DNA of 21,002 nucleotides from a virus, in the IMG/VR virus record IMGVR_UViG_3300007628_000005, positions 1-21,002 of that record; one strand, 5' to 3'. Positions 2,514 to 20,753 of the stretch are shown here, piece by piece. The notes under the pieces were generated by a model that was given only the letters and a program-made list of their open reading frames with translations, had not been told where the DNA came from and did no database searches. Both the position numbers and the translations under genes were made by a program. Position 1 is the first letter of the stretch; every line of letters begins with the position of its first letter.

Positions 2514-3281
2514 ATGCCTGGAAAAGAAGATAATAAAGATATTGAGATCTATGAGGATGAGATAAGGGAGAAACCATCTTTGGGAGAAGATGGTTATCCC
2601 TTATTAGACGGAGAAGATAATCATTTATTGGTAGATAAAGAGGATATATTAGAAGGGATAGACCTAGGTAAAGACATAGAAGATATAGGTAGTAGTGGTA
2701 CAAAGGATGAAAGGTTCAAAGAAAAACAAGGCAATCACACAGAGGCTTATGATACCCTAGAGAGTAGCCTTGTTTCGGTTAATAACCCAGAAGATGTACT
2801 GCAGGTCAGTATTAAACCTGGGTCTCCTTTACAACGAAATATAGAGGACCCTACTGAAAACGACGACCTCTACATATCTCTTAAAGAAAATGCCTCTACC
2901 TCTACTATATTAAATAATATTATGGTAGAGATTGCTGAAGAGGCAGCGTATTTAAAGACCTGGCGTAAAGAGAATTACAACCTTAAAGATGATTTGTCTG
3001 AGATATCTAATAAACGTATTCTCATACTTAAGAAATTAGTAGAGACCGTAGAGAAAAGGGAGAAGATCAGCAATAGTAAGGCTACAGGAAGAGTAGACTT
3101 TCACAGTGATAATTTTCAGAAGGTATTTGAGCACTTTCTACAAACTGTAAAAAGCACCTTTGAAAAGGTAAATATACCTACTCAGTACGAAGAGATTTTC
3201 TTTTCTCAGTTAGCTAAAGACCTAGATGGTTTTGAAGATATTGCTGAGAAGATATATCATGGGAAAAAGGTTAAGAAATAA
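2514..3281 (+). CDS. Acidic protein before TerL, possible small-terminase analogue
   Basis: The first in-frame ATG (2499) has no ribosome site upstream, whereas a GGAGG at 2505-2509 lies just before the ATG at 2514. I therefore choose 2514 (255 aa, starting MPGKEDNKD), although the spacing of 4 nt is short. The N-terminal half is acidic and probably disordered. The C-terminal half, from about residue 130, is a run of charged amphipathic helices with coiled-coil character. The TAA shares its last base with the terminase ATG (taATG), so the two are translationally coupled. Small terminase subunits often sit here, but no DNA-binding helix-turn-helix is recognisable, so that role is inference from position and helical content only. 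Confidence 0.8.
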   Translation: MPGKEDNKDIEIYEDEIREKPSLGEDGYPLLDGEDNHLLVDKEDILEGIDLGKDIEDIGSSGTKDERFKEKQGNHTEAYDTLESSLVSVNNPEDVLQVSIKPGSPLQRNIEDPTENDDLYISLKENASTSTILNNIMVEIAEEAAYLKTWRKENYNLKDDLSEISNKRILILKKLVETVEKREKISNSKATGRVDFHSDNFQKVFEHFLQTVKSTFEKVNIPTQYEEIFFSQLAKDLDGFEDIAEKIYHGKKVKK

Positions 3282-6200
3282 TGTCTATAGCTGAGATGTG
3301 TACTACATTTATTAAGAAAGACACCGACTCAGGTAAACTTCTTGATAAAAACATAATGGAGTTTGTTACTGCTCCTTGGGGGTTGGGTTTAGGCGCAACT
3401 CCTGATGTTCCTCCATTATACCCGTCTCAAAGATTTATTCTTAAATGCTATTATGGTCTGGAATTAGATAACTCAAGTAATAGAGATATAATAATAAAAG
3501 ACCAGTTTAATGAGGTAGAACTATACAGGTTTAATGAAGTTGAGTATTCTAAATATTTATACGACGAACATCGTATAAACGTTCATGATTACGGAGACAG
3601 ACCTAACTTAGTTTTGGTCTGCGGAAGAAGATCTGGTAAATGCATAACAGGAGATTCCCTAACTTTAACTGATAAAGGTATCTATCGTATAGAGGACCTA
3701 GGTGAAGCTCCTGATGAGGGTTTTTCTCCGCTGAATGTAGGTGTAGCTCAAGAGAGCGGTAGAAGCTCCAGGTCTGCATATTTTTATAATGGCGGCGTAA
3801 AGGACGTATTTAAGATTAAGACAAAAGATGGGTACAGTATTAACGGTACCGCTAATCATAGAGTAAAGGTTATGTCTAAAGAGGGCCTAATTGTTTGGCG
3901 CTATCTAGACGATATAAAACCAGGAGACTATATAGCCATCAATAGAAGCACTGACCTGTGGGCGTCAGAAAAAATAAAACTTGATAAGTTTTTTAATAAC
4001 GAAGGGAAAAAAGAAGTAACTTTTCCTGAGGAGCTAGATGAACTCACAGCTAGATTATTGGGTTATCTCGTGGGAGACGAAAGTTGGGGGGCTAAAAATG
4101 CGCTGTCATTAACTGTAGAGCATAACGAAACGTGGGACTCTTTAAAAGACCTATATACAAATATATTTAATGATTATAGAGTTATAGCAGACAAACGAAC
4201 TTCTAATACAGGTAGATTAAGTTTCTTTAGCACTGGTACGAGAAAATTTTTTCACGATTTAGGCTTTTCTTGGGATTGTAATAGATATAATAAATCTATA
4301 CCTTGGTCTATACTTAGGTCGCCTAAATCTGTGGTTTGTTCTTTTCTTAGAGGTTTATTTGAGACAGATGGGTGCCCCGAAAATAACGGGTCTTATATTA
4401 CTTTTTCTACGGCAAGCTTAAGGCTAGCCCATGAGCTTCAAGTAGTTTTGTTGAATCTAGGTATAATATCTAGTATTAGCGAGAAGTACAATAAAAAAAC
4501 AAAGAGGCATTACGCCCATTTAGGTATAAAAGGGGTAAGGTCTAGAAGAATATTTGCTGATCTAATAGGCTTCGACTCAGATAAGAAGATGCTTCCTGTT
4601 TTAGAGTCTCTTAAAAAAGCTAAAGAAGGTAAATCTAACACGGAAAGTATTCCTCACCAAAAAAATAAGATACGAGAACTTTTGGATTCTATTCCTATAA
4701 GAAAAAGAGGCGAAGGTCCTGGGCGAAGAAAACTAAGAGAACTCTTAGGCAATATAACAAAGAATACGAGAGAGGATCTAACATACAATAGACTATGCAA
4801 GTCTATAGATTTTGCAAAAGAAATTAATGCAGGTAAGGAAGAACTTGAGCATTTTAGAAACATAATAAGCACGGATTATTATTACTCTGAGGTTGTTTCT
4901 GTAAAAGAAAGTGAAGACCGTGTATATGACTTAAACGTTCCAGATGGAAACTCTTTTGTTGCTAACGGTATGACTAACCATAATACGACCGTAACTGCAT
5001 GCATAATAGCGTACGAAACCTATAAACTTTTAAACAGATACTGCCCTCAGGAATACTTTGGTATTATGCCTGAAGATGATATACGTATCACTTGTGTGTC
5101 TACGGGTAAAGAGACTGCTACAGAACTGTTTAACAGGGTAACAGGTCATATAGAAAGATGTGAGTTCTTTCGTAAGTTCAGGTGTAAGCCCACCAAACAG
5201 AGTATGCGCCTGAGGTCTCAAAGAGATATAGACAAGTACGGAACCGAAGGCAGAGCTACTATAACTATTAATGTTGCTCCGTGTAGTGCTAAAGGTCTTC
5301 GTGGTCATAACAATATAATAGTCGCTCTAGATGAGATGGCTTTCTTTTTCGCCGATGAGAAAAACTCCGGTGTAGGTGCTAGTGATAAAAATGATAGGGC
5401 TATTTACAACGCGGTTACTCCTTCTTTGGCTAAGTTCAAGACACCGGACGGTAACCCCGCAGGTAAGGTTATTTGTATATCCTCACCTTATGGAAAGACC
5501 GGTAAGTTTTATGAAGAGTATGAACGCTCTTTTAAAGAAGATAACGATGATATATTAATGATCCAGGCTCCTACCTGGGAGATTGACCCTCAACTAGCTT
5601 CAAAGTTTTTAAAGAACAAGTATAACGAAAATCCTAAGGTATATAGGTCTGAGTTCGGGGCTGAGTTTAGTGATGAGATATGCGCTTGGATAGAAGACCC
5701 CGTTATTGTGCGGCAGAATATAGTGCCGGGGCTGTCCTATAAAATAAGATCCTTTGAGAGGGTCCCACATTTCATGGGAATTGACATAGGACTAAAAGGT
5801 GATGGAACTTCAGTAGTGGTAGGGCATTGGACTAAAGAAGTAGTTGATGGAGAAGAGGTGGATAAATTAGAAGTAGATTGTTGTGAGACGAGGTATGCAG
5901 AAGAAGAAGGGAAAGATTTCTTTACGCCGGATGAGATGGCTGAATGGATATCTGAGTTTAAAGATAGATTTTTTATAATTAAGGGTTTAATGGACCAATA
6001 CTACGGTATGAGTATAGTCCCTTATCTAGAGAAAAAGGGACAGAAGATGTTTGAGTCTAGGCACTTTTCTGAGACTAGAAACTCAGAGATATATCAAAAC
6101 TTATTAGCCAGTATGATTTCTTCCACTTTGAGGTTACCTGAATTAGAAACAGAAAGACTTATAGACGGTAAACCTTCAAAGGACACGGACCTTGTATTAG

Positions 6201-6520
6201 AGCTTTTAACACTTCAATCGGAGCAAAGAGGAAAGTATTTAATAAAAGTACACGCCCCTGACAGAGATAAGGCTCACGATGATAATAGTGATGCCTTGTC
6301 TCGTATGGTTCAAGTGGCTATCGAGTACAAAGTAAAAGGTCTAGGAAATAAAATATCTGCTCCTGTAGGATCTAGTCAAGCGCATAGCTTTAAGAAAGCT
6401 AGGTCAAGAGATGCTATGAGAGCTAGCCTGAATAGACCTTCTAGCTCAAAAAGTTACGGGTCTCCTACAAGAACAAGAAGTTCTATGAACGGACCTTCAT
6501 TCTCAAGGACTTTTAGATAA
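3281..6520 (+). CDS. terL: Terminase large subunit (packaging ATPase/nuclease) interrupted by an intein
   Basis: This is the DNA-packaging motor, which docks on the portal, pumps DNA using ATP and cuts the concatemer. The translated product is 1079 aa; removing intein residues 121-568 leaves 631 aa, a normal TerL length. Visible ATPase motifs are the Walker A GRRSGK (115-120) continuing as TT after the intein, Walker B NIIVALDE (678-685, D684/E685) and a coupling-type segment ICISSPYG (around 731-738). The RNase H-like nuclease has candidate metal-binding acids D834 (FMGIDIGL), D905 (GLMDQYYG) and D1001/D1004 (HDDNSDALSRM). The C-terminus is a Ser/Arg-rich tail. The frame is intact across the intein, so protein splicing would restore the enzyme. 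It overlaps the upstream gene by one base. Confidence 0.96.
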   Translation: MSIAEMCTTFIKKDTDSGKLLDKNIMEFVTAPWGLGLGATPDVPPLYPSQRFILKCYYGLELDNSSNRDIIIKDQFNEVELYRFNEVEYSKYLYDEHRINVHDYGDRPNLVLVCGRRSGKCITGDSLTLTDKGIYRIEDLGEAPDEGFSPLNVGVAQESGRSSRSAYFYNGGVKDVFKIKTKDGYSINGTANHRVKVMSKEGLIVWRYLDDIKPGDYIAINRSTDLWASEKIKLDKFFNNEGKKEVTFPEELDELTARLLGYLVGDESWGAKNALSLTVEHNETWDSLKDLYTNIFNDYRVIADKRTSNTGRLSFFSTGTRKFFHDLGFSWDCNRYNKSIPWSILRSPKSVVCSFLRGLFETDGCPENNGSYITFSTASLRLAHELQVVLLNLGIISSISEKYNKKTKRHYAHLGIKGVRSRRIFADLIGFDSDKKMLPVLESLKKAKEGKSNTESIPHQKNKIRELLDSIPIRKRGEGPGRRKLRELLGNITKNTREDLTYNRLCKSIDFAKEINAGKEELEHFRNIISTDYYYSEVVSVKESEDRVYDLNVPDGNSFVANGMTNHNTTVTACIIAYETYKLLNRYCPQEYFGIMPEDDIRITCVSTGKETATELFNRVTGHIERCEFFRKFRCKPTKQSMRLRSQRDIDKYGTEGRATITINVAPCSAKGLRGHNNIIVALDEMAFFFADEKNSGVGASDKNDRAIYNAVTPSLAKFKTPDGNPAGKVICISSPYGKTGKFYEEYERSFKEDNDDILMIQAPTWEIDPQLASKFLKNKYNENPKVYRSEFGAEFSDEICAWIEDPVIVRQNIVPGLSYKIRSFERVPHFMGIDIGLKGDGTSVVVGHWTKEVVDGEEVDKLEVDCCETRYAEEEGKDFFTPDEMAEWISEFKDRFFIIKGLMDQYYGMSIVPYLEKKGQKMFESRHFSETRNSEIYQNLLASMISSTLRLPELETERLIDGKPSKDTDLVLELLTLQSEQRGKYLIKVHAPDRDKAHDDNSDALSRMVQVAIEYKVKGLGNKISAPVGSSQAHSFKKARSRDAMRASLNRPSSSKSYGSPTRTRSSMNGPSFSRTFR
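3641..4984 (+). mobile_element. In-frame LAGLIDADG-bearing intein in the TerL P-loop
   Basis: This is a 448-residue self-splicing element, residues 121-568 of the TerL precursor. It starts with Cys (CITGDSLTL, block A). It carries a TxxH-type block B (GTANHRV, T190/H193) and a block F/G end (VYDLNVPDGNSF, then VANGMTNHN). It finishes with His567-Asn568 followed by extein Thr569, the normal class 1 splicing chemistry. Between the splicing blocks lie two dodecapeptide endonuclease motifs, LLGYLVGDE (259-267) and LRGLFETDG (356-364). Both retain an acidic catalytic residue (D266 and D363), so homing activity may be intact. Insertion is exactly between the Walker A Lys and the following Thr, which makes TerL inactive until splicing. 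Confidence 0.95.
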
Positions 6521-10646: not shown

Positions 10647-10685
10647 AGTAATAGGGGCTCTATTTTAGAGCCCCTATTACTTTAT
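10643..10685. terminator. Bidirectional intrinsic terminator between convergent genes
   Basis: This is a perfect 20-bp inverted repeat with a 3-nt TTT loop. The GC-rich core GGGGCTC/GAGCCCC sits close to the loop and the stem ends in AAA/TTT. It can stop transcription from both sides. The TAA of the fibre gene (10644-10646) and the stop of the minus-strand gene (10682-10684) both lie in the stem base. Confidence 0.93.
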
Positions 10686-11206
10686 GGAAGAACGATTTCG
10701 TCTAAGAATACCGTTATATCTGTACACATATTTCTACTTATGTCTATATAAGAGCATCCTCCCGGTACAGTTTGATTAATAGTTGATATAGTCGCATCTC
10801 TGTATGTAAAACGTAGGTTCATTGGGCTATCTTGCCAGTCACCAGGGTCGGAGTCATAACACTCTGGTAGTCTAAGAGTTATAGATACTTTACCTTGAGA
10901 ATCTGTGATATAGTTGGCGTAAGGGTTAAGTTCGCGCGTCTCGATACAGCACGCCTCCCAAGCTCCTGTATGCACAGCAACTTGAGTACTTATGGATACG
11001 TATGGAATAGGTCTATAATTGTGATCTACTACAGTAATGTTTAAATTAAGGGTTGTGGCTCCCGTTAAAGGTATAAACTCGATCTTGCTTATCTCGTTAA
11101 TATTGTAGGATAGGCTGTTACCGCCGTTCATAGTGACCTTCATGAAATAGTCTTGACTATAACTCAGACTCACGAGAAAAAGAATCAGAAACATAAATCT
11201 ACGCAT
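10682..11206 (-). CDS. Secreted Ig-like protein, probable phage cargo (moron) gene
   Basis: The protein has 174 residues and is the only minus-strand gene here. The N-terminus is a classic Sec signal peptide: two Arg, a hydrophobic core (FMFLILFLVSL) and a likely cut after SYS before Gln. Residues about 20-45 (KVTMNGGNSLSYNINEISKI) show a short pattern I associate with secreted proteins of Bacteroidota, Fibrobacterota and relatives. After it comes one beta-sandwich, Ig-like domain resembling bacterial adhesin repeats (LNLNITVVDHNYRPIPYVSI, then YITDSQGKVSITLRLP). Five mature-region cysteines could form disulfides after export. A good site (AAGGAG, 7 nt spacing) precedes the ATG. It has its own upstream gap and ends in the shared terminator, so it is a separate unit. 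Function is unknown; altering the host surface is a guess. Confidence 0.85.
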   Translation of the reverse strand: MRRFMFLILFLVSLSYSQDYFMKVTMNGGNSLSYNINEISKIEFIPLTGATTLNLNITVVDHNYRPIPYVSISTQVAVHTGAWEACCIETRELNPYANYITDSQGKVSITLRLPECYDSDPGDWQDSPMNLRFTYRDATISTINQTVPGGCSYIDISRNMCTDITVFLDEIVLP

Positions 11207-11245: not shown

Positions 11246-11304
11246 TAATATACTTTTTTGTACTAAGAAAATTAAACGATAATTTCCATAAAAATACACG
11301 CCAT

Positions 11305-11320
11305 AATAATGTATTAATAA
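11305..11320 (+). promoter_or_regulatory. Candidate phage promoter element, copy 1 (divergent gap)
   Basis: The sequence AATAATGTATTAATAA matches 14 of 16 bases of the identical elements at 14500-14515 and 18003-18018. The palindromic core TATTAATA (11312-11319) starts 55 nt before the ATG at 11367. It lies in the 160-nt divergent gap (11207-11366), which otherwise holds AT-rich DNA and the ribosome sites of both genes. I see no convincing sigma-70 promoter in this gap. Confidence 0.4.
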
Positions 11321-11366
11321 TCCAGCGCTTTATATACGTTGTATTATTCAGATTATAGGAGATGTT

Positions 11367-11570
11367 ATGCCCGGTGAGTTAGGAGACGAGCAAACACAAC
11401 CAGGTGTAGGTTATTACGAGGACCGCTATGACCCAGACCCGGAATGGATTCACGCTAAGGATAGCACTGGGTGGTATGAACCTATACCTGAAAATAGCCA
11501 AATAAAAAGGATATTAAAAAGGCTTAGGAATAAAAAATATAAAAGATCAGATGGAGACCAAGATGCCTGA
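11367..11570 (+). CDS. Small protein of unknown function at the head of the portal operon
   Basis: The protein has 67 residues, with AGGAG at 11357-11361 five bases before the ATG. The first 45 residues are acidic and aromatic with many Pro, Asp and Tyr (YYEDRYDPDPEWIHAKDS). The last 20 are strongly basic (IKRILKRLRNKKYKRS). No family is recognised. It is the first gene after the divergent gap, and its end overlaps the next gene, so it belongs to the portal transcription unit. The basic tail could bind nucleic acid or an acidic partner; this is a guess. Confidence 0.75.
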   Translation: MPGELGDEQTQPGVGYYEDRYDPDPEWIHAKDSTGWYEPIPENSQIKRILKRLRNKKYKRSDGDQDA

Positions 11571-11874
11571 AACCAACCAGACTATCAAAAAAATAGATAT
11601 GCTAAGAGGTAAAGTTAAGAAAGATATTGTTAATATGCTTCAGCTTTACGGGTCTCTAAAGGATGACTTGGAAGGTAAGTTTAGGTCTGAGTTGAGGCAG
11701 CAAAAGGGTGATTACAACGGGCTAGAAGATTTTTACGCCCTGGTAATGCTGCTTAAAAAAGATAGCCAAACAGTTTCGGGTATAATGAATCTATTTAAGA
11801 GATTAAATGATTTATCTAAGTTTAACGTTTCTGAAATAGAAGATAATATAGAGCTCGAAAAAATATTCGAGTAG
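11563..11874 (+). CDS. Small helical protein preceding the portal
   Basis: Two ATGs are possible. The one at 11551 has no clear ribosome site; the one at 11563 has GGAG at 11553-11556 with a 6-nt spacer, so I choose 11563 (103 aa, starting MPETNQTIKK). It then overlaps the preceding gene by 8 nt. The product is almost wholly alpha-helical and charged, with heptad-like spacing (KIDMLRGKVKKDIVNMLQLY, later MNLFKRLNDLSKF). No known domain is seen. It sits 11 nt before the portal gene, which suggests an accessory role in portal or prohead assembly, by position only. Confidence 0.78.
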   Translation: MPETNQTIKKIDMLRGKVKKDIVNMLQLYGSLKDDLEGKFRSELRQQKGDYNGLEDFYALVMLLKKDSQTVSGIMNLFKRLNDLSKFNVSEIEDNIELEKIFE

Positions 11875-11885
11875 GGAGATAGTAT

Positions 11886-13877
11886 ATGGCAGAAAAAAAA
11901 GGATCGACAAGGACAAGGGTTACAAAAACTGCGTCCGTATCCGACACAGCAGGAAGTATGGCTAAAAAAACAGCTCAGGTTAAAACCATAGCTAGTCAGT
12001 CATCCACACCTATGCCTCTTACAGAAAAAGAAACAAGAGCTCGTATGGCAAAAAAGTACTCTACGACTACCTTTGGTTTTAATACTAGAAAAGCCTTCGA
12101 TTCTGCAGGTATAGGAGACGTATCAAATAGCGGTCATGGTAATTTTTACTCTCCGCAGCTATCTACAGACTTTTTAGAGAAGCCGCAAAACTTAAGAGAG
12201 CGTAGAGCTTGGTATAGGCATTTTTACAATTCTAACGAATTTGTAGGAGCGGCTGTAGACCTGCACTCTACTCTCCCTCTTTCAAAAATAAGACTAGATA
12301 AACCAAAATGTAAGAACTCAGATATGTGTGATTATGTCTATGATTACTTTGTAGACATGTGTGATGACATGAAGTTGTTTAAAACTCTTCTAGAAATAAG
12401 TCATGAGTACTGGCTCTTGGGTAACTGCTTCATTTTCGCTGAAGACCATGAGCCTTATACGGTTGAGGATGAAACCGACTTATCTGCGCAGGATAGAATA
12501 AAAGAGCTTAAAGAAGCTGGAAGAATAAGGTCTGATAAATTACACAAAGAATTTGAAATTGTAGATAAAGATCCTAATTACTTAGGGTGGAGAAAGCTTT
12601 TAATACTTCCCCCAGACCAGGTTAGAATAAAGAAAATACCTCTATCTGATGATTCGTTGATAGAGTTTATACCAGACCCAGAAACTAAAAAAAGTATACT
12701 TCAAGCTAAGCAGGGTATGTATCCAGGCTCTTACTTCCAAACAGAAAAAAATCCATACAGCCCTCCTGACGTACCGGAAAAACTAGCTCAGCAGTTAGAA
12801 CAAAACGGTACCATACCTCTAGACACAGACCCCTTTAGCGGGTCGCATGTGTACCACCTAGCTAGAAAGAAATCCCAATACGAGACTCTAGGAGTTTCTG
12901 TACTGGAGAGGTGCATAAATACTCTGCTCCTCCAAGATAAACTTAGACAAGCTCAGACCTCAATAGCCTCTCGGCACATGACTCCCATACGTATCGTGTG
13001 GGGAGAAGATTTAAGTGAGCCGGACGTTGAGAACTTACGAGAGCAGGTTGATTTGGCTCTTGTAGACCCAGACTTCTCGATTATCACCAACTACCAGGTT
13101 AACTGGGAAGAGATGGGATCTAACGGTCGTTTATTGGAACTCTCAGGAGAGTATGACCATATAGAAAACTCTCTATTTTCTGGGCTTGGTGTTACTCGTG
13201 AGATACTTACCGGTGAAGGTACGTATTCAGGTAATCGTATCACTCTTGAGATTATGAATACCCAATATTTGCTGTATCGAGAATTACTTCAAGAGTACGT
13301 AGAAAACTACCTGTTCAAGCCTGTGGCGAAGAAAAAAGGTTTTATAGAAGAAGATAAGTACGGAAGACAAAAGCTTATATACCCTAAGCTAAGCTTTACT
13401 AGGCTCGCTATTAGAGATAATGATTCCTTCTTTGAGCAGGTATTTCAACTTTATAATAAGGGCTCGGTTTCTATCGATGTCATACTCGATATGCTTAATA
13501 TTGATCCTGAGTCTACTAGTAAAAAGATTAAGTCCGACCTTTTTACTGTAGATGACTTCGCATATAACCAGCTTATGGCTAATATATACACGGCAGCAGG
13601 ACAAGGTCTAGTAGAGAGATATAACGTACTAGAAAGGCTTGCTGATTATATGGGTTTCTCAGAAGTTGAGCAGCCGCAAGAAGATGAAGGCGGCGGGGAC
13701 TTAGGCGGTGGAATGCCTAGATTCGCTAGTGCTGGAAAAAAAGAAAGCGGTAAAAAGGAGAATCCTAAAGTAGCTAATATGCCTGCTAATAAAAAAGCCG
13801 CTCTTCAAAAAGTATTAAACGCGGCTATGCAAAACCCAGAAAAACTAGAAAAGATTATGGGATATCTGGAGAAATAA
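11886..13877 (+). CDS. Portal protein
   Basis: The portal forms the dodecameric ring at one capsid vertex that seeds assembly, docks the terminase and passes DNA. The product has 663 residues, within the usual portal range. Recognisable portal features are the N-terminal wing (WYRHFYNSNEFVGAAVDLHS, about residues 108-127), an aromatic stretch HEYWLLGNCFIFAEDH, the segment HVYHLARKKSQYETLGVSVL, and the stem/crown region ENSLFSGLGVTREILTGEG followed by helical YLLYRELLQEYVENYLF. The first 60 residues are Ser/Thr/Lys-rich and the last 60 are Gly/Lys-rich, both probably flexible. [K/R]-x-A-S tetrapeptides sit only in those tails (KTAS 14-17, RFAS 612-615), consistent with trimming of the ends. 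AGGGAG precedes the ATG. Identification is by pattern, without alignment. Confidence 0.92.
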   Translation: MAEKKGSTRTRVTKTASVSDTAGSMAKKTAQVKTIASQSSTPMPLTEKETRARMAKKYSTTTFGFNTRKAFDSAGIGDVSNSGHGNFYSPQLSTDFLEKPQNLRERRAWYRHFYNSNEFVGAAVDLHSTLPLSKIRLDKPKCKNSDMCDYVYDYFVDMCDDMKLFKTLLEISHEYWLLGNCFIFAEDHEPYTVEDETDLSAQDRIKELKEAGRIRSDKLHKEFEIVDKDPNYLGWRKLLILPPDQVRIKKIPLSDDSLIEFIPDPETKKSILQAKQGMYPGSYFQTEKNPYSPPDVPEKLAQQLEQNGTIPLDTDPFSGSHVYHLARKKSQYETLGVSVLERCINTLLLQDKLRQAQTSIASRHMTPIRIVWGEDLSEPDVENLREQVDLALVDPDFSIITNYQVNWEEMGSNGRLLELSGEYDHIENSLFSGLGVTREILTGEGTYSGNRITLEIMNTQYLLYRELLQEYVENYLFKPVAKKKGFIEEDKYGRQKLIYPKLSFTRLAIRDNDSFFEQVFQLYNKGSVSIDVILDMLNIDPESTSKKIKSDLFTVDDFAYNQLMANIYTAAGQGLVERYNVLERLADYMGFSEVEQPQEDEGGGDLGGGMPRFASAGKKESGKKENPKVANMPANKKAALQKVLNAAMQNPEKLEKIMGYLEK

Positions 13878-13879
13878 GA

Positions 13880-14215
13880 ATGATAGTTTTAATAAGCAAT
13901 AAAATAAGGTCTGTTGTTGCAAGTCTTATAGGCATTGACGTAGATGAGTGTTTGCCTTCTGATGAAAAGCAAGCTAAAAAGTTTAAGGTGGAGAATCCCG
14001 TCAAAGAGGTAACTGTTACACACAAAAGAACAGACGGAGATATTAAGGAGAGAAAGTATAAAGCCCCTCCCAAAATTAAACCTAAGAGAAGAGATAATAC
14101 TTTATCTGAATGGGATTATAAAGACAAGAGAAAAGAGTATACAGAGCAATATAGGAATGAAGGTAAAGACGTCGAGACTGGTAACAAATACATTAAGAAA
14201 TTAAAAGGAGAGTAA
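13880..14215 (+). CDS. Small basic protein of unknown function after the portal
   Basis: The protein has 111 residues. It begins 2 nt after the portal stop, with GGAGAA overlapping the portal end as its ribosome site. The first 20 residues are hydrophobic (MIVLISNKIRSVVASLIGI). That stretch is too interrupted by charge for a confident membrane segment. The remainder is rich in Lys, Arg, Glu and Pro (KAPPKIKPKRRD) and probably extended or disordered. No family is recognised. Tight coupling to the portal gene suggests a structural accessory role. Confidence 0.75.
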   Translation: MIVLISNKIRSVVASLIGIDVDECLPSDEKQAKKFKVENPVKEVTVTHKRTDGDIKERKYKAPPKIKPKRRDNTLSEWDYKDKRKEYTEQYRNEGKDVETGNKYIKKLKGE

Positions 14216-14216
14216 T

Positions 14217-14504
14217 ATGGCGAAGGCTCCGAGACAACTTAAACGTCAGATAGAGATCTTTGAGGGTGTTATAAAATCCCTTAATGATATCACAGACGTT
14301 AATAAGATAGAGATGCAATACTATGGGGCGGATTTTATTGAGCAACTCACAGAGTTAAGATCAAAGGCTCTAGATTTGAGAAATTATATAGAAGTCTTTA
14401 AAAACAACTTAGAGTTTTCTTTAGGTACGCAATACGAGAGCAACAGTAGATTTGCTTCTGCTAAGCGTGTGGTGAATAATTACCTAGATTCTCCTGAAGA
14501 ATAA
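14217..14504 (+). CDS. Small coiled-coil protein with a C-terminal RFAS site
   Basis: The protein has 95 residues. AAAGGAG overlaps the end of the previous gene and the ATG is one base after its stop. It is mostly two long amphipathic helices (around residues 5-25 and 37-68), then a short basic tail. RFAS (78-81) is followed by Ala, giving RFASA exactly as in the portal tail. The family is unknown; a small core or portal-associated protein is plausible. The TAA stop lies inside the AT-rich element that precedes the next gene. Confidence 0.78.
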   Translation: MAKAPRQLKRQIEIFEGVIKSLNDITDVNKIEMQYYGADFIEQLTELRSKALDLRNYIEVFKNNLEFSLGTQYESNSRFASAKRVVNNYLDSPEE

Positions 14505-14515
14505 TCTATTAATAT
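14500..14515 (+). promoter_or_regulatory. Candidate phage promoter element, copy 2
   Basis: AATAATCTATTAATAT is identical over 16 nt to 18003-18018 and is followed by ATAAA. The palindromic core TATTAATA is at 14507-14514, 47 nt before the ATG at 14554. It overlaps the stop of the upstream gene. The recurrence in gaps at unit starts is the evidence. Confidence 0.5.
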
Positions 14516-14553
14516 ATAAAGGTTTTAGGTGAATATACCGCTAGGAGAATATT

Positions 14554-15726
14554 ATGGCTAAAGACGATAAAAAGAAAGATAAAAGTACTCCTAAGAAGGA
14601 TACTAATAAGAATGTCCCGAAGGTTACTCCTTCTAAAGACAAAGGACAAAATAATGTAAAGGATAAAGCTAGAAGTCTCATAAAAAATCACCCCCAAGTT
14701 CTTACGAACGCTCGGGGATTGTTTAGGAACGAGAACGGTAAGACTATAGTGGAAGAGATAGTCCATCGTGGAGATTCTAGCACTAAAGAGCGGATAATGC
14801 CTCGTAACCAATGCGACCTAACTGACGAAGATTTACGTTCTTTAGCTGTACATGCCTCCACTCTTGTTAATAAAGATATTGCTAAGTACGACCCGGTTTT
14901 AGCCTCTGAGGAAGCCTTGGCTATGTCTATTCGAACTAAAGACGGCGGTAAATATGACGGAAAGGTTAATGCTAATACTTTTTGTCTTATTCTTGGTGAT
15001 ATGAAAAATATGAAAAAAGCTTCTGACGAATCTAAGGAAAACGAGTCTACAAATGAAGACGCCTCCCCTGAAGAAGAGCCACAAAAAGAGACTGGATTCG
15101 AGAGAGGCAAAAGAATCACTAAAGAAAAGTTAGAAGAAATAAAAAAGAAAAACCAAGAGAAATCTCAAAAAGCTAAAGAAGAGGCCCAAAAGGCTGAAGA
15201 TATTAAAAACCCTGAGGAGGGAAAAATGGATAAGGAAACACTTAGAAGAGAAAAAGAAGCAATGCTTAGGAAGCTTTCTGCTATAGAAGAACTAATGGGC
15301 GAGGAAGTTGAAGCCGCTGATGAGGAACCGACTGAAGACGATGCTCAGGTAAACGATAGTTCTAATCCTGCAGAGCCTGATCAAGGCGGCGGAGAGATCT
15401 CAGATATATCTGATGTTACTGCCTCTCTGGATAAAATTGCTGGTGTCCTTGAGCAACAACGAGACAAAGAGCTGTTTAAGATGGCTTTCCAACTCGACCA
15501 GATCTCAGACATCCTCGAAGGTAAAAGAGAAGCATCTGCACTTGAGAGTGACCCAGACGAGAAATACATGAAAAATTTCTTTAAGGGCGGTCTTCATGAC
15601 GGTGATTCAGATGAGTCTTATATGAAGGAATTTAATACAGATATTACAAAAGAAGTAGAGTCTGTTAAAGATAAAAAGAACGGTAAAGAAGCTAGCCAAA
15701 AGCTGCCTTACCAGAAGTTGAGCTAA
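14554..15726 (+). CDS. Highly charged core/scaffold-like protein
   Basis: The protein has 390 residues, with AGGAGA before the ATG. Residues 1-45 are Lys-rich and disordered. Residues about 45-150 form a compact-looking domain (QVLTNARGLFRNENGKTIVE, then CDLTDEDLRSLAVHASTLVN). Residues 155-285 are an acidic and basic coiled coil with a Glu/Asp-rich stretch. The tail repeats a D-x-D-E-x-Y-M-K motif (DPDEKYMKNFF 333-343 and DSDESYMKEF 351-360). Three [K/R]-x-A-S sites are present (KKAS 154, REAS 325, KEAS 378). Such composition resembles prohead core proteins that are degraded during maturation, but I cannot name a family. It begins a transcription unit with the SH3-like and protease-like genes. 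Confidence 0.82.
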   Translation: MAKDDKKKDKSTPKKDTNKNVPKVTPSKDKGQNNVKDKARSLIKNHPQVLTNARGLFRNENGKTIVEEIVHRGDSSTKERIMPRNQCDLTDEDLRSLAVHASTLVNKDIAKYDPVLASEEALAMSIRTKDGGKYDGKVNANTFCLILGDMKNMKKASDESKENESTNEDASPEEEPQKETGFERGKRITKEKLEEIKKKNQEKSQKAKEEAQKAEDIKNPEEGKMDKETLRREKEAMLRKLSAIEELMGEEVEAADEEPTEDDAQVNDSSNPAEPDQGGGEISDISDVTASLDKIAGVLEQQRDKELFKMAFQLDQISDILEGKREASALESDPDEKYMKNFFKGGLHDGDSDESYMKEFNTDITKEVESVKDKKNGKEASQKLPYQKLS

Positions 15727-15742
15727 TTGAAAGGACCACAAT

Positions 15743-16303
15743 ATGCCTGGTATTTTTCTACATTCTGTCGGTGCCTGTGACTATAAAGTAGGACAACAAG
15801 TAAAGTGGTATGTAAATGAGCTTGAGAAGTCACCCTACATAGGAGTTATAACGGGTATAGCTCCGGCTTCTAATAAGGTGTATGTGGAGTGGCCTGTAGG
15901 AGGTAACCAGCAGATGGATCCTACTGAACTGCTTCTTGTGACCCCTGAGTCTGATGGCGTGTCTCCTATAAAAAGAGAGACTGGATACTCTAGCTATGAG
16001 AAAGAGAAATCCAAGGATCAGTTCGGAGATATTAGTCCTAAAGTCTTAAGACTAGCTGAGAAGCTGGCTGCTTCAACCCAGTCAATAGACATTGAAAAGT
16101 ACAGGGTTAGGAAGATGGCTAGCACGGTATCTACTAAATTTGCTAATGAGTTTGTTGGGAGTGTCTCTAAAGATATCCTTACATGCAAGAATGAAGGTAT
16201 GTCTGATGTAGAGGCGTACCAAACAGTGAGCGCAAGTTATGGTGATACATGCTCAGATATTTTTTTAAGAGATGCTGTTGAAAATATATATCAAGGGGAA
16301 TAA
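15743..16303 (+). CDS. Head-module protein with N-terminal SH3-like domain
   Basis: The protein has 186 residues, with AAAGGA before the ATG. Residues about 14-68 form a small beta-barrel-like pattern (YKVGQQVKWYV, YIGVITGIAP, VYVEWPVGGNQQMDPTELLL) of the SH3-like type, seen in other phage head proteins beside the protease. Residues 90-186 are helical and contain KMAS (124-127), which would separate the two halves, then a C-terminal helical domain with two Cys. The gene is 2 nt before the protease-like gene. The function is unknown; it may bind the capsid or assist the protease. Confidence 0.82.
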   Translation: MPGIFLHSVGACDYKVGQQVKWYVNELEKSPYIGVITGIAPASNKVYVEWPVGGNQQMDPTELLLVTPESDGVSPIKRETGYSSYEKEKSKDQFGDISPKVLRLAEKLAASTQSIDIEKYRVRKMASTVSTKFANEFVGSVSKDILTCKNEGMSDVEAYQTVSASYGDTCSDIFLRDAVENIYQGE

Positions 16304-16305
16304 TA

Positions 16306-17985
16306 ATGGCCATGCTAAAAACCGGTAATGCTATTGTTACTACACCAATAGTAGACCCTGGTAAATGGCTCGACAAAAAAACCCCCGCTAGTAGGGTTAA
16401 GGTAGCACAAGATAAGATAGCTGCTTTTGACCCTGCAAAATGGTTGTTGAGTCACGTATCTATAATAGCTTCTGTGGACACAGAACTTGCGGATCCTAAT
16501 GATAAGAAGAGTAATTATCTCATCACTCCAGAATACTCTATGTTCGTTAATAATAACGGAGATAGCTGGGAGAGAAATCTTTTAAAATCCTGCTACAGTT
16601 CATTCCTAGGGGCCGATAACTACGTAGAGCACGTACAAATACCTGAACTGTCCAAAGGTAAGGTTATTGACGTAGCTCTTAGAGAAGTACCTTTTACTAA
16701 GAGAGACGGTAAAGACTTAACAACCTTATACGTAGACATACTTATCGCTACTAACAGGACTCACTCAGACTTAATAGAGAAGATTACCTCAGGTGAGTAT
16801 AATGCGACATCAATGGGATGCCTCATAAAATATTCTCAGTGCTCTCAGTGCGGAAATATTGCAGAAGATGACTCTCAAGCCTGTCAGCATGTTAGATTCT
16901 TCAAGAATAACTACTTCTATGATCCTAACGGCGTGAAACGTATAATAGCGGAACTTTGTGGTAGAGCTGAAGAACCAGATAGCTGCAAGTTTATAGACGC
17001 TAGTTGGGTGAGAAAACCTGCTTTTGAAGGTGCCGTTCTACGAAATATCTTGGACATAGCTGGCGATAACCAAGACGTGTCTGAAAAATTGAACAAAGCA
17101 GTAAATATACCTTCTTTTATTCCTCAAGAAGGCATGCTCTTAAGAGCTGCTAGTGATGCTGCATCTGACTTGGTTAGAAAAGTAAATGCTGCCGAAGATG
17201 ACGCTCCTGCCGAGGGTGGCGGGGATGCTCCAGCGCCTCCCGCAGACGATACTGATTTCCCTGAACCAAGCGGAGGTGAAACTCCTCCATTAACGGAAGA
17301 CACTCCTCCAGCTGAAGGTGAAGGAGAACCACCTGCTGAAGGCGAAGGAGAACCACCTGCTGAAGGCGGAGGGGATTCCTCCTCAGCAGATCCTATGGCT
17401 GACCCAGGCGGTGCAGAGCCTGGTGCTGATCAAGGCGGAGCTGTCCCGGCCCCTGAGATTCAAGAGCCTATAGATGACGCTACAACAAAAGAAGTAAAAG
17501 ACATGCTTAAAAAGCAGGTCCTTAATCAAATAAGGAAAGAACTTTTACAGGAAGAAGCTAAAGGCCAAGAAAGACCTGTAGGTCTTGAGAATGAGGTAAA
17601 TAATAGTCTTATAAGAGAAGCCTCTAGAAAAACTTCTTACGAAAAAAATGTAAAAAGACTTATGTCTGCTGCAGAGAAATACCCGAACAACGAAAGAATC
17701 GTTAATGGTATTCATATACTTTCTAACCTTAAAGATTGGGGTAAGATTAGAAAGTATGGTTATAGTAGAGACGATGTCTTAGGTCTTTTGTTTCACGTAG
17801 ATAAAACTATGAGCAATCAACCGGTCGGGTTAGATACTGTAAAGGCCCTAAGTAAGATCAGGCTAGCATCAGGTAATTTGAAGGGTTTTTTTACTGAGCT
17901 GATAATAGAAACAGGAAGAAAACCTACAGCTCAAGAGGCTAAGAAATTAGCTGGATGGGGTAAAATTCTTTCAAATTTCGACTGA
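16306..17985 (+). CDS. Probable prohead maturation protease with scaffold-like tail
   Basis: The protein has 559 residues. Residues about 45-245 look like the prohead serine protease fold of tailed phages. They include a candidate catalytic His109 (NYVEHVQIPE), strand LYVDILIATN, and a candidate Ser169 in EYNATSMGCLI. Directly after lies CSQC (179-182) with C193 and H195, a knuckle like those I recall in capsid maturation proteases of some large phages. Residues about 295-395 are a Pro/Glu/Gly-rich linker containing a 24-bp repeat. Residues 395-559 are helical and may serve as scaffold. RAAS (280-283), REAS (437-440) and RLAS (519-522) would separate these parts if autocleaved. It precedes the scaffold and major capsid genes, the usual place. 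Assignment rests on motif pattern, not on alignment. Confidence 0.75.
   Translation: MAMLKTGNAIVTTPIVDPGKWLDKKTPASRVKVAQDKIAAFDPAKWLLSHVSIIASVDTELADPNDKKSNYLITPEYSMFVNNNGDSWERNLLKSCYSSFLGADNYVEHVQIPELSKGKVIDVALREVPFTKRDGKDLTTLYVDILIATNRTHSDLIEKITSGEYNATSMGCLIKYSQCSQCGNIAEDDSQACQHVRFFKNNYFYDPNGVKRIIAELCGRAEEPDSCKFIDASWVRKPAFEGAVLRNILDIAGDNQDVSEKLNKAVNIPSFIPQEGMLLRAASDAASDLVRKVNAAEDDAPAEGGGDAPAPPADDTDFPEPSGGETPPLTEDTPPAEGEGEPPAEGEGEPPAEGGGDSSSADPMADPGGAEPGADQGGAVPAPEIQEPIDDATTKEVKDMLKKQVLNQIRKELLQEEAKGQERPVGLENEVNNSLIREASRKTSYEKNVKRLMSAAEKYPNNERIVNGIHILSNLKDWGKIRKYGYSRDDVLGLLFHVDKTMSNQPVGLDTVKALSKIRLASGNLKGFFTELIIETGRKPTAQEAKKLAGWGKILSNFD
17311..17372 (+). repeat. 24-bp tandem repeat coding AEGEGEPP
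   Basis: Two units (17311-17334 and 17335-17358) differ by one base. A partial third unit follows to 17372. The repeat encodes the flexible acidic Pro/Gly linker of the protease-like protein and is likely to vary in length by slippage. Confidence 0.9.
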
Positions 17986-18002
17986 TTTTATTTATAAGTG
18001 TT

Positions 18003-18018
18003 AATAATCTATTAATAT
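18003..18018 (+). promoter_or_regulatory. Candidate phage promoter element, copy 3
   Basis: AATAATCTATTAATAT is identical to 14500-14515. The core TATTAATA is at 18010-18017, 79 nt before the scaffold ATG. It lies between two imperfect direct repeats beginning TTTATAA (17991-18009 and 18018-18036, 15 of 19 bases shared). TTATAAATG at 18019-18027 faintly resembles T4-type late promoters (TATAAATA). Confidence 0.5.
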
Positions 18019-18088: not shown

Positions 18089-19096
18089 ATGGCAAGACAG
18101 CGTCTGACGAGCAAAACAGCAGAAGATTGGGTTAAGTCACAAAAAGGGACACAGGCTGAAGCTAAAGGCTCTGGCATTGAGAATGACCCTTATTCAATGA
18201 ATAACCCAGATCACGAAAAGAATGACCCTAAGCACGACGCTTATGCAAAAGGCGACCCCTCTGCTTGGGCCGAAGATGTAGACAACAGTAATCTTAGTAA
18301 TCAAGACAAAAGGAATGAGATGCATGTTCCTGAGATGACTGCAAAGCAAGCCGCTGAAGCAGTTGCAGCTGCCAAGAAACTCGAAGAGAAAGCAATCAAA
18401 TGTATTGTTGCTTCTCAGCGCATTCTTCCTGGAGCAGCAGATGACCTCATCGAAGCTCAGGCCGCAGACCTTATGCATCTTCCTGAGAACAGCGTTAACG
18501 CAACACTCAGCCGTCAAGAAAATCTAGCAAAGCTTATCTCTAAGGCTGCTGCAGAATCTGAAGAAGAATCTGAAGAAGACTCTGAAGAAGACTCTGAAGA
18601 AGACTCTGAAGAAGACTCTAAAGAAGGGTCTCCTGTTAAAGAGGAGAAGGAAGCTGCTAAAGGTAAGGGTCTTGAAAAGGGCGATGAAGACGGTGAGGAT
18701 GAAATGGATAGGATTGCTAGTGCCTTACTCGCTGGCGATATGAGCAAACTTCCTCTTGCACTTCAAAAAGCTATCAAGAATAAGAAAGACGGTGAGGGAA
18801 ATAATAATAACGACGATAAGGGAAAGAAAAATAACGACGATGAGGGAAAGAAAAATAACGACGATGAGGGAGTAGAAGGTAAGGACGATACTGACGAAGA
18901 GGCAGCAATGGGCAAGTCTTGTGACGCTTCAGAATCTTCCCTCCTTGATGAAATATTTAGCAGCGTAACTGCTTCTGATAGTAAAAAAGGTGCTAAGACA
19001 CTTAAAGGCATGGTTAAGAAAGAAGCTTCTGAAGGTAGCGACGGTATCAACGGTATTTGGGACGCGCCACCTGACGTAAGCAGAGTATTTAAATAA
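18089..19096 (+). CDS. Glu-rich prohead scaffold/core protein candidate
   Basis: AGGAGG (18077-18082) is 6 nt before the ATG at 18089; an in-frame TTG at 18083 is too close to be the start. The product has 335 residues. Residues 1-85 are hydrophilic. Residues 85-155 are helical (KQAAEAVAAAKKLEEKAIKC, DLIEAQAADLMHLPENSV). Residues 158-177 are repeated EEDS. Residues 235-265 are Asn/Asp/Lys repeats. The C-terminal 50 residues are helical and end in a compact GIWDAPPDVSRVF motif, which could be a capsid-binding tail. The acidity, low complexity and place just upstream of the decoration and major capsid genes fit a scaffold removed by proteolysis. RIAS (208-211) and KEAS (311-314) are candidate cut sites. 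No sequence family is recognised. Confidence 0.82.
   Translation: MARQRLTSKTAEDWVKSQKGTQAEAKGSGIENDPYSMNNPDHEKNDPKHDAYAKGDPSAWAEDVDNSNLSNQDKRNEMHVPEMTAKQAAEAVAAAKKLEEKAIKCIVASQRILPGAADDLIEAQAADLMHLPENSVNATLSRQENLAKLISKAAAESEEESEEDSEEDSEEDSEEDSKEGSPVKEEKEAAKGKGLEKGDEDGEDEMDRIASALLAGDMSKLPLALQKAIKNKKDGEGNNNNDDKGKKNNDDEGKKNNDDEGVEGKDDTDEEAAMGKSCDASESSLLDEIFSSVTASDSKKGAKTLKGMVKKEASEGSDGINGIWDAPPDVSRVFK
18560..18619 (+). repeat. Five tandem 12-bp units coding EE[E/D]S
   Basis: The last four units are perfect copies of GAAGAAGACTCT and the first has one change. The repeat lies in the scaffold candidate and is in frame. Changes in copy number would lengthen or shorten the acidic tract without a frameshift. 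Confidence 0.92.
18806..18871 (+). repeat. 24-bp tandem repeat coding NNDD[E/K]GKK
   Basis: There are two full units (18806-18829 and 18830-18853, one base different) and a partial third to 18871, in frame within the scaffold candidate. The repeat encodes a polar, probably unstructured linker. Confidence 0.9.
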
Positions 19097-19121
19097 GAGT
19101 AAGACTAAAAGTTCACCACCC

Positions 19122-19145
19122 GCCCAAGTAGGGATTGGGTTTTTT
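19122..19145 (+). terminator. Weak intrinsic terminator or attenuator before the decoration gene
   Basis: A CCCAA/TTGGG stem with a 7-nt loop is followed at once by six T. An outer ACCC/GGGT alternative is also possible. The short stem suggests partial read-through. It lies between the scaffold candidate and the decoration and capsid genes. No promoter is obvious after it, so read-through or an upstream promoter must feed those genes. Confidence 0.55.
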
Positions 19146-19164
19146 CAAAAACAGGAGGTCTTTT

Positions 19165-19710
19165 ATGATCGGTGAAGGAAGTGGGATAGTCTCTGATCGC
19201 GGGCTAAACATTCTGTACAGGGTTACACTTAATACTGTAATGAACCTTACAGACGCCGGGTTGACCACTGCAAACACTTGTTACAACTCCAGTGCTAGTG
19301 ATGTTCGTATCACGTCTGACGTACCTTCCGGCATTCTTGCTGGTCAGGTTCTGATGGCTGGTACTTCTAACGGTACTGCTGTAACTAGTGATGCAACTGG
19401 TGCGCCACTTGGTGTAGCGATTAACAACGCAGTAGGTTATCCGTATGAGAGTATGAGCGGTGTTGCTTCTGGTAAGGTTCCTTACCTCAGCGGCTCTGGT
19501 TCAGTTTTCTCTACTGACGTTTATGAAGTTTACGACTCTGACAAGGCTACCGCTCTTAGTTATTCCGCTGGTGATGCTCTGTATGCATCTGAAAACGGTC
19601 TTTTGACTAACGAGAGCGACGTTTCCGGTTCAGAAGGTACAGTTGTAGGTGTTGTCCTTGTGGCCCCTTCTACAACAGACCCATTCATGGTTGTTCAGTT
19701 AAGAGTATAA
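19165..19710 (+). CDS. Probable capsid decoration/head-stabilising protein
   Basis: AGGAGG (19153-19158) lies 6 nt before the ATG at 19165, giving MIGEGSGIVSDRG. A TTG at 19135 lies in the terminator stem and is rejected as the start. The product has 181 residues, is almost wholly beta-strand and is rich in Ser, Thr, Gly and Val, with no signal peptide or enzyme motif (for example PSGILAGQVLMAGTSNGTAV, then APLGVAINNAVGYP). Small beta-rich proteins encoded just before the major capsid gene are commonly decoration or cement proteins. The location and composition are seen; the function is inferred. Its strong ribosome site fits a protein needed in high copy. Confidence 0.75.
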   Translation: MIGEGSGIVSDRGLNILYRVTLNTVMNLTDAGLTTANTCYNSSASDVRITSDVPSGILAGQVLMAGTSNGTAVTSDATGAPLGVAINNAVGYPYESMSGVASGKVPYLSGSGSVFSTDVYEVYDSDKATALSYSAGDALYASENGLLTNESDVSGSEGTVVGVVLVAPSTTDPFMVVQLRV

Positions 19711-19742
19711 CACTGTCCAGAAAGGCATTAGGAGGTTAAAAC

Positions 19743-20627
19743 ATGGCTGATACTAATATCTCTAATGAAGTTAAACAGCAGATCATAGGGGACTACATCA
19801 AGACTGCTGCTGGACGTGCTAAGCTTGCAGCTAGTATGGTTCAACCCCTTCGTCTGCGTCGCGACTATACTTCTGTCGCTCGTAAGGCTTTCCTCGTAGA
19901 GCAGCTTCCGGATGGCGCTCTGCCTATTTACGATAAGGATCCTAACGTGACCGCATTCGTAGTAGGTGAGGAAGGAGAAAACATCCTCGCAATCACGAAG
20001 CCTCGTCGTGTGATTTTCCCACTCTTCGAGATTGCTTCTAACCCTGAAATCCCTCTGACACAGGTTAAAGAGCGTAGATTCGACCTGATCGAAAGATCAC
20101 AGGATCTTGCTAAAGCTCAAATCCAGGCTGCTGAAGATGCTCGCGCATTTGATGTAATGGATGCCGTTGCTCAGAATGGTTTCGATAACCTCGGTTCTGC
20201 TTATGTGAACGCTCAGGTTAACGCTACAGCTCCGCTGACACCGTCTAACCTTGCTGACGCTTTTGCACGTATCGAAACTCATGACCTTCGCGTTGCTCGT
20301 ATCTTTGTGAATGCTCTGGATTACTCCGACATTCGTAAGTGGGGCCGTGATGTTCTTGACATCGAAACTCAGGCTACATTGCTTAAAACCGGATTAATGG
20401 CAACCGTTTGGGGAGCTCAGATCATCGTAACTCGTAAAGTAGCTCCTGGTTACATTTACGTTTGCGCAGAGCCTGAATTCTTCGGACGTATACCCGTTCG
20501 CACGGAGCTAACCGTCCTAAGCGCAGATGACCCGAAAGCAAGAAGAATTGGGTTTTCGGTCTTCGAAAATTTAGGGATCGGGTGTCATAATCCTCTCGCT
20601 ATCACTCGTATTAAGCTTGCTCGCTAA
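19743..20627 (+). CDS. Major capsid protein, HK97 fold
   Basis: The protein has 294 residues, with AGGAGG before the ATG. Features of HK97-fold major capsid proteins are visible. There is a short helical N-arm, then DYTSVARKAFLVEQLPDGAL. A long spine helix (residues about 110-145, QVKERRFDLIERSQDLAKAQ onward, ending near FDVMDAVAQNG) follows. The A-domain runs through VARIFVNALDYSDIRKWGRD and LLKTGLMATVWGAQIIVTRK to YIYVCAEPEFFGRIPVRTEL. The N-arm is short, without a long cleavable delta domain, consistent with a separate scaffold. Codon choice differs from its neighbours: most Arg codons are CGT/CGC and Leu CTT/CTG, while other genes favour AGA and TTA. That fits selection for high expression. 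A strong terminator follows. Confidence 0.92.
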   Translation: MADTNISNEVKQQIIGDYIKTAAGRAKLAASMVQPLRLRRDYTSVARKAFLVEQLPDGALPIYDKDPNVTAFVVGEEGENILAITKPRRVIFPLFEIASNPEIPLTQVKERRFDLIERSQDLAKAQIQAAEDARAFDVMDAVAQNGFDNLGSAYVNAQVNATAPLTPSNLADAFARIETHDLRVARIFVNALDYSDIRKWGRDVLDIETQATLLKTGLMATVWGAQIIVTRKVAPGYIYVCAEPEFFGRIPVRTELTVLSADDPKARRIGFSVFENLGIGCHNPLAITRIKLAR

Positions 20628-20649: not shown

Positions 20650-20684
20650 AAAGGCTTCGAGATTTTATCTCGAAGCCTTTTTTT
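20650..20684 (+). terminator. Strong intrinsic terminator after the major capsid gene
   Basis: A 13-bp perfect stem AAAGGCTTCGAGA / TCTCGAAGCCTTT has a 5-nt loop (TTTTA) and seven T in a row. It is a textbook rho-independent terminator closing the capsid transcription unit. Confidence 0.95.
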
Positions 20685-20710
20685 GACTTTTTTTAGGATC
20701 ATTATAGTAT
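20683..20710 (+). promoter_or_regulatory. Possible sigma-70-like promoter for the last gene
   Basis: TTGACT (20683-20688) and TAGTAT (20705-20710) are 16 nt apart, in AT-rich DNA just after the terminator; overlapping alternatives TATAGT and TATATT exist. A new promoter is needed for the next gene if the terminator is efficient. The match is weak. Confidence 0.35.
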
Positions 20711-20753
20711 ATTACTGTAAGTGTATTACAAAAATGAGAGCTAGGGGGTTTTG

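Follow-up and report, generated by a model that had tools for sequence, protein, structure and literature searches.

A 16-nt element that recurs before virion genes and is a probable late promoter in large uncultured phages distantly related to Bacillus phage G

The late promoters of phage T4, which depend on gp55, gp33 and gp45, consist of a single AT-rich block (an 8-bp TATA box) with no -35 element, and occur in many copies before the virion genes. They are served by the host core polymerase together with factors that are tied to replication. The T4 late box lies about one helical turn before the transcription start, and gp33 is a mimic of sigma region 4 (PMC2988020). In phiEco32, the middle and late promoters recognized by the gp36 sigma factor carry the element tAATGTAtA and start transcription 6-8 bp downstream, and the late promoters of phage 7-11, recognized by the gp47 sigma factor, are bipartite, with the arrangement GTAAtg-(16)-aCTA (PMC8948821). 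For jumbo phages that lack an RNA polymerase of their own, a review states that they rely on conserved sigma homologues, which act at promoters specific to the phage (PMC13282480). Annotated sigma factors are found near the terminase in both Bacillus phage G and Tunturiibacter phage Tunturi_5. Meanwhile, phiKZ and AR9 are jumbo phages that possess compact promoters of their own and encode a multisubunit polymerase.

Here, we describe an element from a 21,002-bp virus record, analysed over its whole length and hereafter called the window. Among named phages, LR745208, Tunturi_5, and Bacillus phage G come nearest to it by portal and capsid proteins, and the window is therefore a 21-kb fragment of a jumbo-phage lineage that is distantly related to Bacillus phage G. 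The papers that we found and read named no promoter for this lineage, and the ten papers listed by a search for the letters TAATAATCT were irrelevant. The features of the window that concern the element are listed in Table 1. The acidic protein that opens the third unit appears scaffold-like by position and composition.

Table 1. Copies of the element in the window and the transcription units that they precede
Feature	Position	Strand	Details
Copy A, TAATAATGTATTAATA	11304..11319	+	PWM score 19.2; precedes the gene at 11367, which opens the portal operon
Portal operon, first genes: 67 aa, 107 aa, portal protein (11886-13877)	11367..13877	+	Portal PHROG 16240, E=1e-38
Copy B, GAATAATCTATTAATA	14499..14514	+	PWM score 19.1; precedes the gene at 14554
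Second unit: 390 aa, 186 aa, head maturation protease (16306-17985)	14554..17985	+	PHROG 18299, E=5e-13
Copy C, TAATAATCTATTAATA	18002..18017	+	PWM score 22.6; perfect consensus; precedes the operon of putative scaffold, decoration, and major capsid
Third unit: acidic 335-aa protein, head decoration-like protein (19165-19710), major capsid (19743-20627)	18089..20627	+	PHROG 122, PHROG 2522
Intrinsic-terminator-like hairpin, strong, closing the capsid operon	20650..20680	+	14 pairs and a T tract

The initial annotation of the window had pointed to a 16-mer at three places on the plus strand, in two exact copies (14500-14515 and 18003-18018) and one copy with two mismatches (14/16; 11305-11320). 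All three were recovered, and no further match to the 16-mer was present in the window at up to three mismatches. The conserved unit, TAATAATCTnTTAATA, begins one base before this 16-mer. The spacing of 47-79 nt that had been given to the first gene of each cluster is correct if it is counted between the start of TATTAATA and the ATG (55, 47, and 79 nt for the ATGs at 11367, 14554, and 18089), and corresponds to 47, 39, and 71 nt from the end of the element for copies A, B, and C. The placement of the copies in intergenic gaps does not strictly extend to copy B, which overlaps the stop codon of the gene ending at 14504. We also agree that the sites carry no good sigma-70 promoter, as neither an upstream nor a downstream box is present there, and the window contains 23 sigma-70-like matches, a number at the level of chance (18.9 +/- 4.6). 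The exact repetition of the 16-mer at two intergenic positions was seen in 0 of 300 Markov shuffles of the window. A looser count within the window alone is weak, with three matches reached in 7 of 100 shuffles. Since the searched record (G000) is the window itself, enrichment had to be examined in relatives.

Portal relatives comprised 31 IMG/VR loci on contigs of 15-470 kb. Motif discovery by EM was run on each of eight relatives (34-62% GC) separately, with their upstream regions as input, and arrived at TAATAATCTnTTAATA in all of them; in the genomes of 51% and 62% GC among these eight, AT-rich chance is no explanation. At a strict threshold, a matrix made from 217 sites gave 227 matches vs 38 in reversed-sequence controls, and 203 of the 227 were intergenic, though non-coding DNA makes up only 6-13% of each genome. 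Because this matrix had been trained on the same regions that it scanned, a non-circular test was added, in which the window-derived 14-mer ATAATCTATTAATA was sought in 13 relatives at up to one mismatch. It yielded 81 matches, of which 73 were intergenic and 64 lay within 110 nt before a start on the same strand; 60 composition shuffles gave a mean of 0.55 and a maximum of 3 such promoter-positioned copies. Enrichment upstream of genes, the check that had been proposed for the element, was thus found in the relatives by a wide margin, and a whole group of large uncultured phages carries the element at the same places, in dozens of copies per genome. It is absent from Tunturi_5, occurs at control level in Bacillus phage G, and has no strong copy in the three loci where portal identity is as low as 41-45%.

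Throughout the relatives, the element lies on the coding strand, shortly upstream of start codons, and it is the sole conserved block in aligned leaders that have otherwise diverged. The consensus from the 217 sites, TAATAATCTnTTAATA, is built as a direct repeat, TAATA-n6-TAATA, with a period of 11 bp, about one helical turn. The palindrome TATTAATA, which had been taken for its core, is not conserved: motif position 10 is degenerate across these sites (A 0.45, T 0.32, C 0.16, G 0.07), so that most copies in relatives are not palindromic. This rules out the palindrome as the functional core and marks it as incidental. Nor was a -35 partner found in the 217 sites: upstream of the element, none of the columns between -45 and -1 is conserved. 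Downstream, a sigma-70 -10 box (TAnnnT or TATAAT-like) is not enriched at any offset from 1 to 34 nt. The element hence does not have the TTGACA and TATAAT boxes, about 17 bp apart, of host sigma-70 promoters.

The lack of a -35 element, the single AT-rich block, and the many copies before virion genes are shared with the late promoters of T4, as would be the use of the host core polymerase with factors tied to replication. The two differ in that T4 uses its 8-bp box, whose consensus TATAAATA is not matched by that of the 217 sites, whereas the present block spans 16 nt of other sequence, would sit further upstream, and is accompanied by a two-HTH protein of sigma-4 fold. Meanwhile, phiEco32 offers the likeness of a phage-sigma promoter with a single element starting with TAAT, but the consensus here is not tAATGTAtA: it is 16 nt long, its second half is different, and its transcription start would lie about 14 nt downstream. 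Phage 7-11 presumably has in common with this lineage the action of a phage sigma and host core on late genes, and differs by its second box, which is missing here.

The position of the element was compared between loci by using window proteins as tblastn queries. It preceded the orthologue of the gene at 18089 (copy C) in 24 of 26 loci, that of the gene at 14554 (copy B) in 12 of 26, and that of the gene at 11367 (copy A) in 6 of 9, vs a single case in the 176 tests made on nine further genes from this region, a few of the loci being near-duplicates. No portal (0/30 loci), protease (0/26), or capsid gene (0/25) had the element directly upstream. The three genes that the initial annotation had singled out are therefore exactly those whose orthologues the element precedes. 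In the relative G009, it leads the genes of the tail sheath, the tail fibre, and others of the virion region, and is not found before those of the RecD2 helicase, NAD synthase, NAPRTase, topoisomerase I, and NAD-dependent DNA ligase. A description of the element as late only is inexact, as a few non-virion genes carry it, among them ribonucleotide reductase in G009 with a weak copy upstream, and we use late in the sense suggested by the class of genes that it leads. Motif searches in the element-free upstream regions of relatives gave no promoter-like consensus for a second class; the best motif from such regions of G009 resembles the tRNA T-arm sequence.

The distances from the element to the ATG include a separate class of 13-17 nt (14 sites, eight of them at exactly 14 nt). 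A Shine-Dalgarno site is present at 1 of these 14 genes, with the ATG at up to 17 nt, vs 133 of the 148 whose ATG lies at least 22 nt away (Fisher p=9e-11), and except for two weak copies, Shine-Dalgarno sites start only from +14 after the element. Among the short-spaced genes are three orthologue groups; each has members from two or more phages, and these resemble one another at the N-terminus, which makes their starts credible. At the sites with long leaders, a pyrimidine-purine step peaks at +14 (0.45), and purines peak at +15 and +16. The two signals agree in pointing to a probable start of transcription some 13-16 nt after the element. The element would then lie between about -30 and -15, further from the start than the T4 late box or the phiEco32 element, and a subset of late mRNAs, those of the short-spaced class, would probably be leaderless, beginning at or beside the start codon; this reasoning draws on start codons from a simple gene finder, on 14 short-spaced genes, and on a weak initiator signal. 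Alternatively, transcription may begin 6-8 nt after the element and produce short leaders without a Shine-Dalgarno site.

Proteins that might read the element were sought among the products of the relatives. A protein of about 207 aa with two HTH units is present in 21 viral loci and matches the sigma region 4 of Pfam, which makes it comparable to the gp33 of T4. Its predicted model displays both HTH units, with most of residues 41-180 at pLDDT >80; the first unit has the fold of sigma region 4, and in the fold comparison for the second domain the match list was filled by the first. The two recognition helices, TQGAISHRLSRA and TQVKVRHKFDRS, bear a weak resemblance to each other (hhalign probability 12%, E 0.003), and resembling helices would suit a direct repeat in the DNA. 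The gene is part of a conserved order in which the clamp loader and the 5'-3' exonuclease are followed by the HTH protein and then, after the first strong element, by the structural genes. The window record has no sigma-like genes, and ends about 1-3 kb short of the place where synteny would put the HTH gene. A shorter and diverged two-HTH paralogue (34% identical) is located at 59322-59858 of another relative, G012, far from the portal region.

The other candidate is a diverged ECF-like sigma of 203-253 aa, encoded behind the replication genes in G009, G011, and G012; in G009, the genes ahead of it are those of DnaB, DnaG, and the family A DNA polymerase (PolA), the polymerase gene lying just before it. 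Its model matches sigma factors of the PDB, with a mean pLDDT of only 70. The genes of both families lie in replication blocks and have no strong element directly upstream, as expected of factors that switch on late genes. Between the two, we slightly favour the HTH protein as the reader because of where its gene lies, and because a pair of HTH units would match a repeated DNA sequence.

This recurrent, strand-specific element at the starts of transcription units thus occurs together with a conserved phage sigma-like gene. We postulate, with good but not full confidence, that it is a late promoter used across the lineage by the host polymerase with one or more phage sigma-like factors. Under this proposal, TAATAATCTnTTAATA would form the core of a promoter that is specific to these phages and used mainly for their late (virion) genes, and the compact single block would serve alone, without a -35 partner or a sigma-70 -10 box. 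The sigma-like protein or proteins would be made from the replication gene blocks, and the two-HTH protein, the ECF-like sigma, or both would bring the host RNA polymerase to the element. RNA synthesis would then begin some 13-16 nt past it, at or near the start codon for some late mRNAs. Possible, though less likely than not, is a novel architecture, in which a 16-nt TAATA direct repeat (11 bp apart), centred near -22 and free of -35 and -10 boxes, would be bound at its two half-sites by the two HTHs of one sigma-region-4-like protein, giving conserved leaderless late mRNAs that start about 14 nt below.

Of the readings first offered for the element, a promoter of the sigma-factor or activator type is supported by the enrichment upstream of genes and by the presence of sigma-like and activator-like phage proteins. 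The activator side of this pair could also mean that the element is only an operator for an activator or repressor, and that nearby sigma-70 promoters start transcription, as with the MotA box and -10 box of T4. A two-HTH DNA-binding protein conserved beside the element would fit an operator, and the likely placement at -30 to -15 is more like that of activator boxes than that of a -10 box. However, the sites have neither the downstream -10 enrichment nor the conserved upstream box that such promoters would bring, and the sigma-70-like matches of the window do not exceed chance, which leaves the operator an unlikely explanation. The other branch, in which a phage-encoded RNA polymerase reads the element, as in phiKZ, AR9, or T7, is far less probable still. 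Compact single-block promoters are typical of such enzymes, and the lineage shares with phiKZ and AR9 the condition of jumbo phages with compact promoters of their own. Yet the Rpb2 domain (PF00562) was found in 0 of 18 records and a T7-type RNA polymerase (PF00940) in none over the cut-off, among records of which many are fragments and against phiKZ-type subunits that are divergent, and the sigma-like proteins that are present need a bacterial core.

The constant coding strand and the short distance to start codons would also suit an element that works in RNA, as a conserved 5' leader with a role in stability, translation, or processing. The element is AT-rich and without a partner sequence, however, and Shine-Dalgarno sites are missing exactly where the ATG follows at 13-17 nt, a pattern that fits a transcription start below the element and not an element within the leader; we see very little chance that this explanation is right. 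Chance repeats in AT-rich DNA, to which the loose count in the window alone lent some colour, are refuted by the comparisons across genomes and orthologues, and we discard them. The late promoter served by host polymerase and phage sigma-like factors is the reading that we retain. It would belong to a known kind, that of phage sigma with host core, and nothing in the material that we searched had its sequence, length, likely position, or candidate reader. The element provides a ready map of late genes for dozens of uncultured large phages, names two candidate regulators, and allows the promoter geometry and the predicted leaderless late mRNAs to be tested sharply.

Other motifs were seen in the outgroups. 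In LR745208.1, CGATTTCnCTAAAAATT followed by a conserved GTGCCGATAGGG precedes about 30 mostly non-structural transcription units. Its CGATTTCnCTAAAAATT has a similar shape at first sight, and was rejected as a related motif for its location mostly outside the structural region and its second conserved part. About 25 genes of the outgroup G013 carry GAGTGGAATCGGTATAGC upstream, at a distance of 16-28 nt from the ATG and immediately ahead of the Shine-Dalgarno site; this motif was also rejected as a counterpart of the element. Motif searches restricted to the structural regions of the outgroups showed nothing clear. Meanwhile, the contig WJJK01000172.1, filed under a Candidatus Altiarchaeales MAG, contains a phage module with the HTH gene and the element; it is probably mis-binned phage DNA, because the replication genes of a relative are of bacterial type.

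Additional observations concern the gene content of these phages. Past the hairpin that follows the capsid gene (window 20650-20750), a sigma-70-like TTGACT-16-TAGTAT lies before a small gene at 20751, which has weak repressor-type matches and is without the element. The sole minus-strand gene of the window (10682-11206) is located between two plus-strand operons and encodes a 174-aa product with a signal-peptide-like N-terminus and no family match. The terminase large subunit (window 3281-6520) is split by an intein with a LAGLIDADG homing endonuclease, and in G009 intein or homing domains also occur in RecD2, ribonucleotide reductase, NAD synthase, and DNA polymerase. The genes of NAD synthase and NAPRTase are adjacent in G009 (61976-66587) and form an NAD-salvage pair, which by its presumed function is of a kind that could counter NAD-depleting defences.
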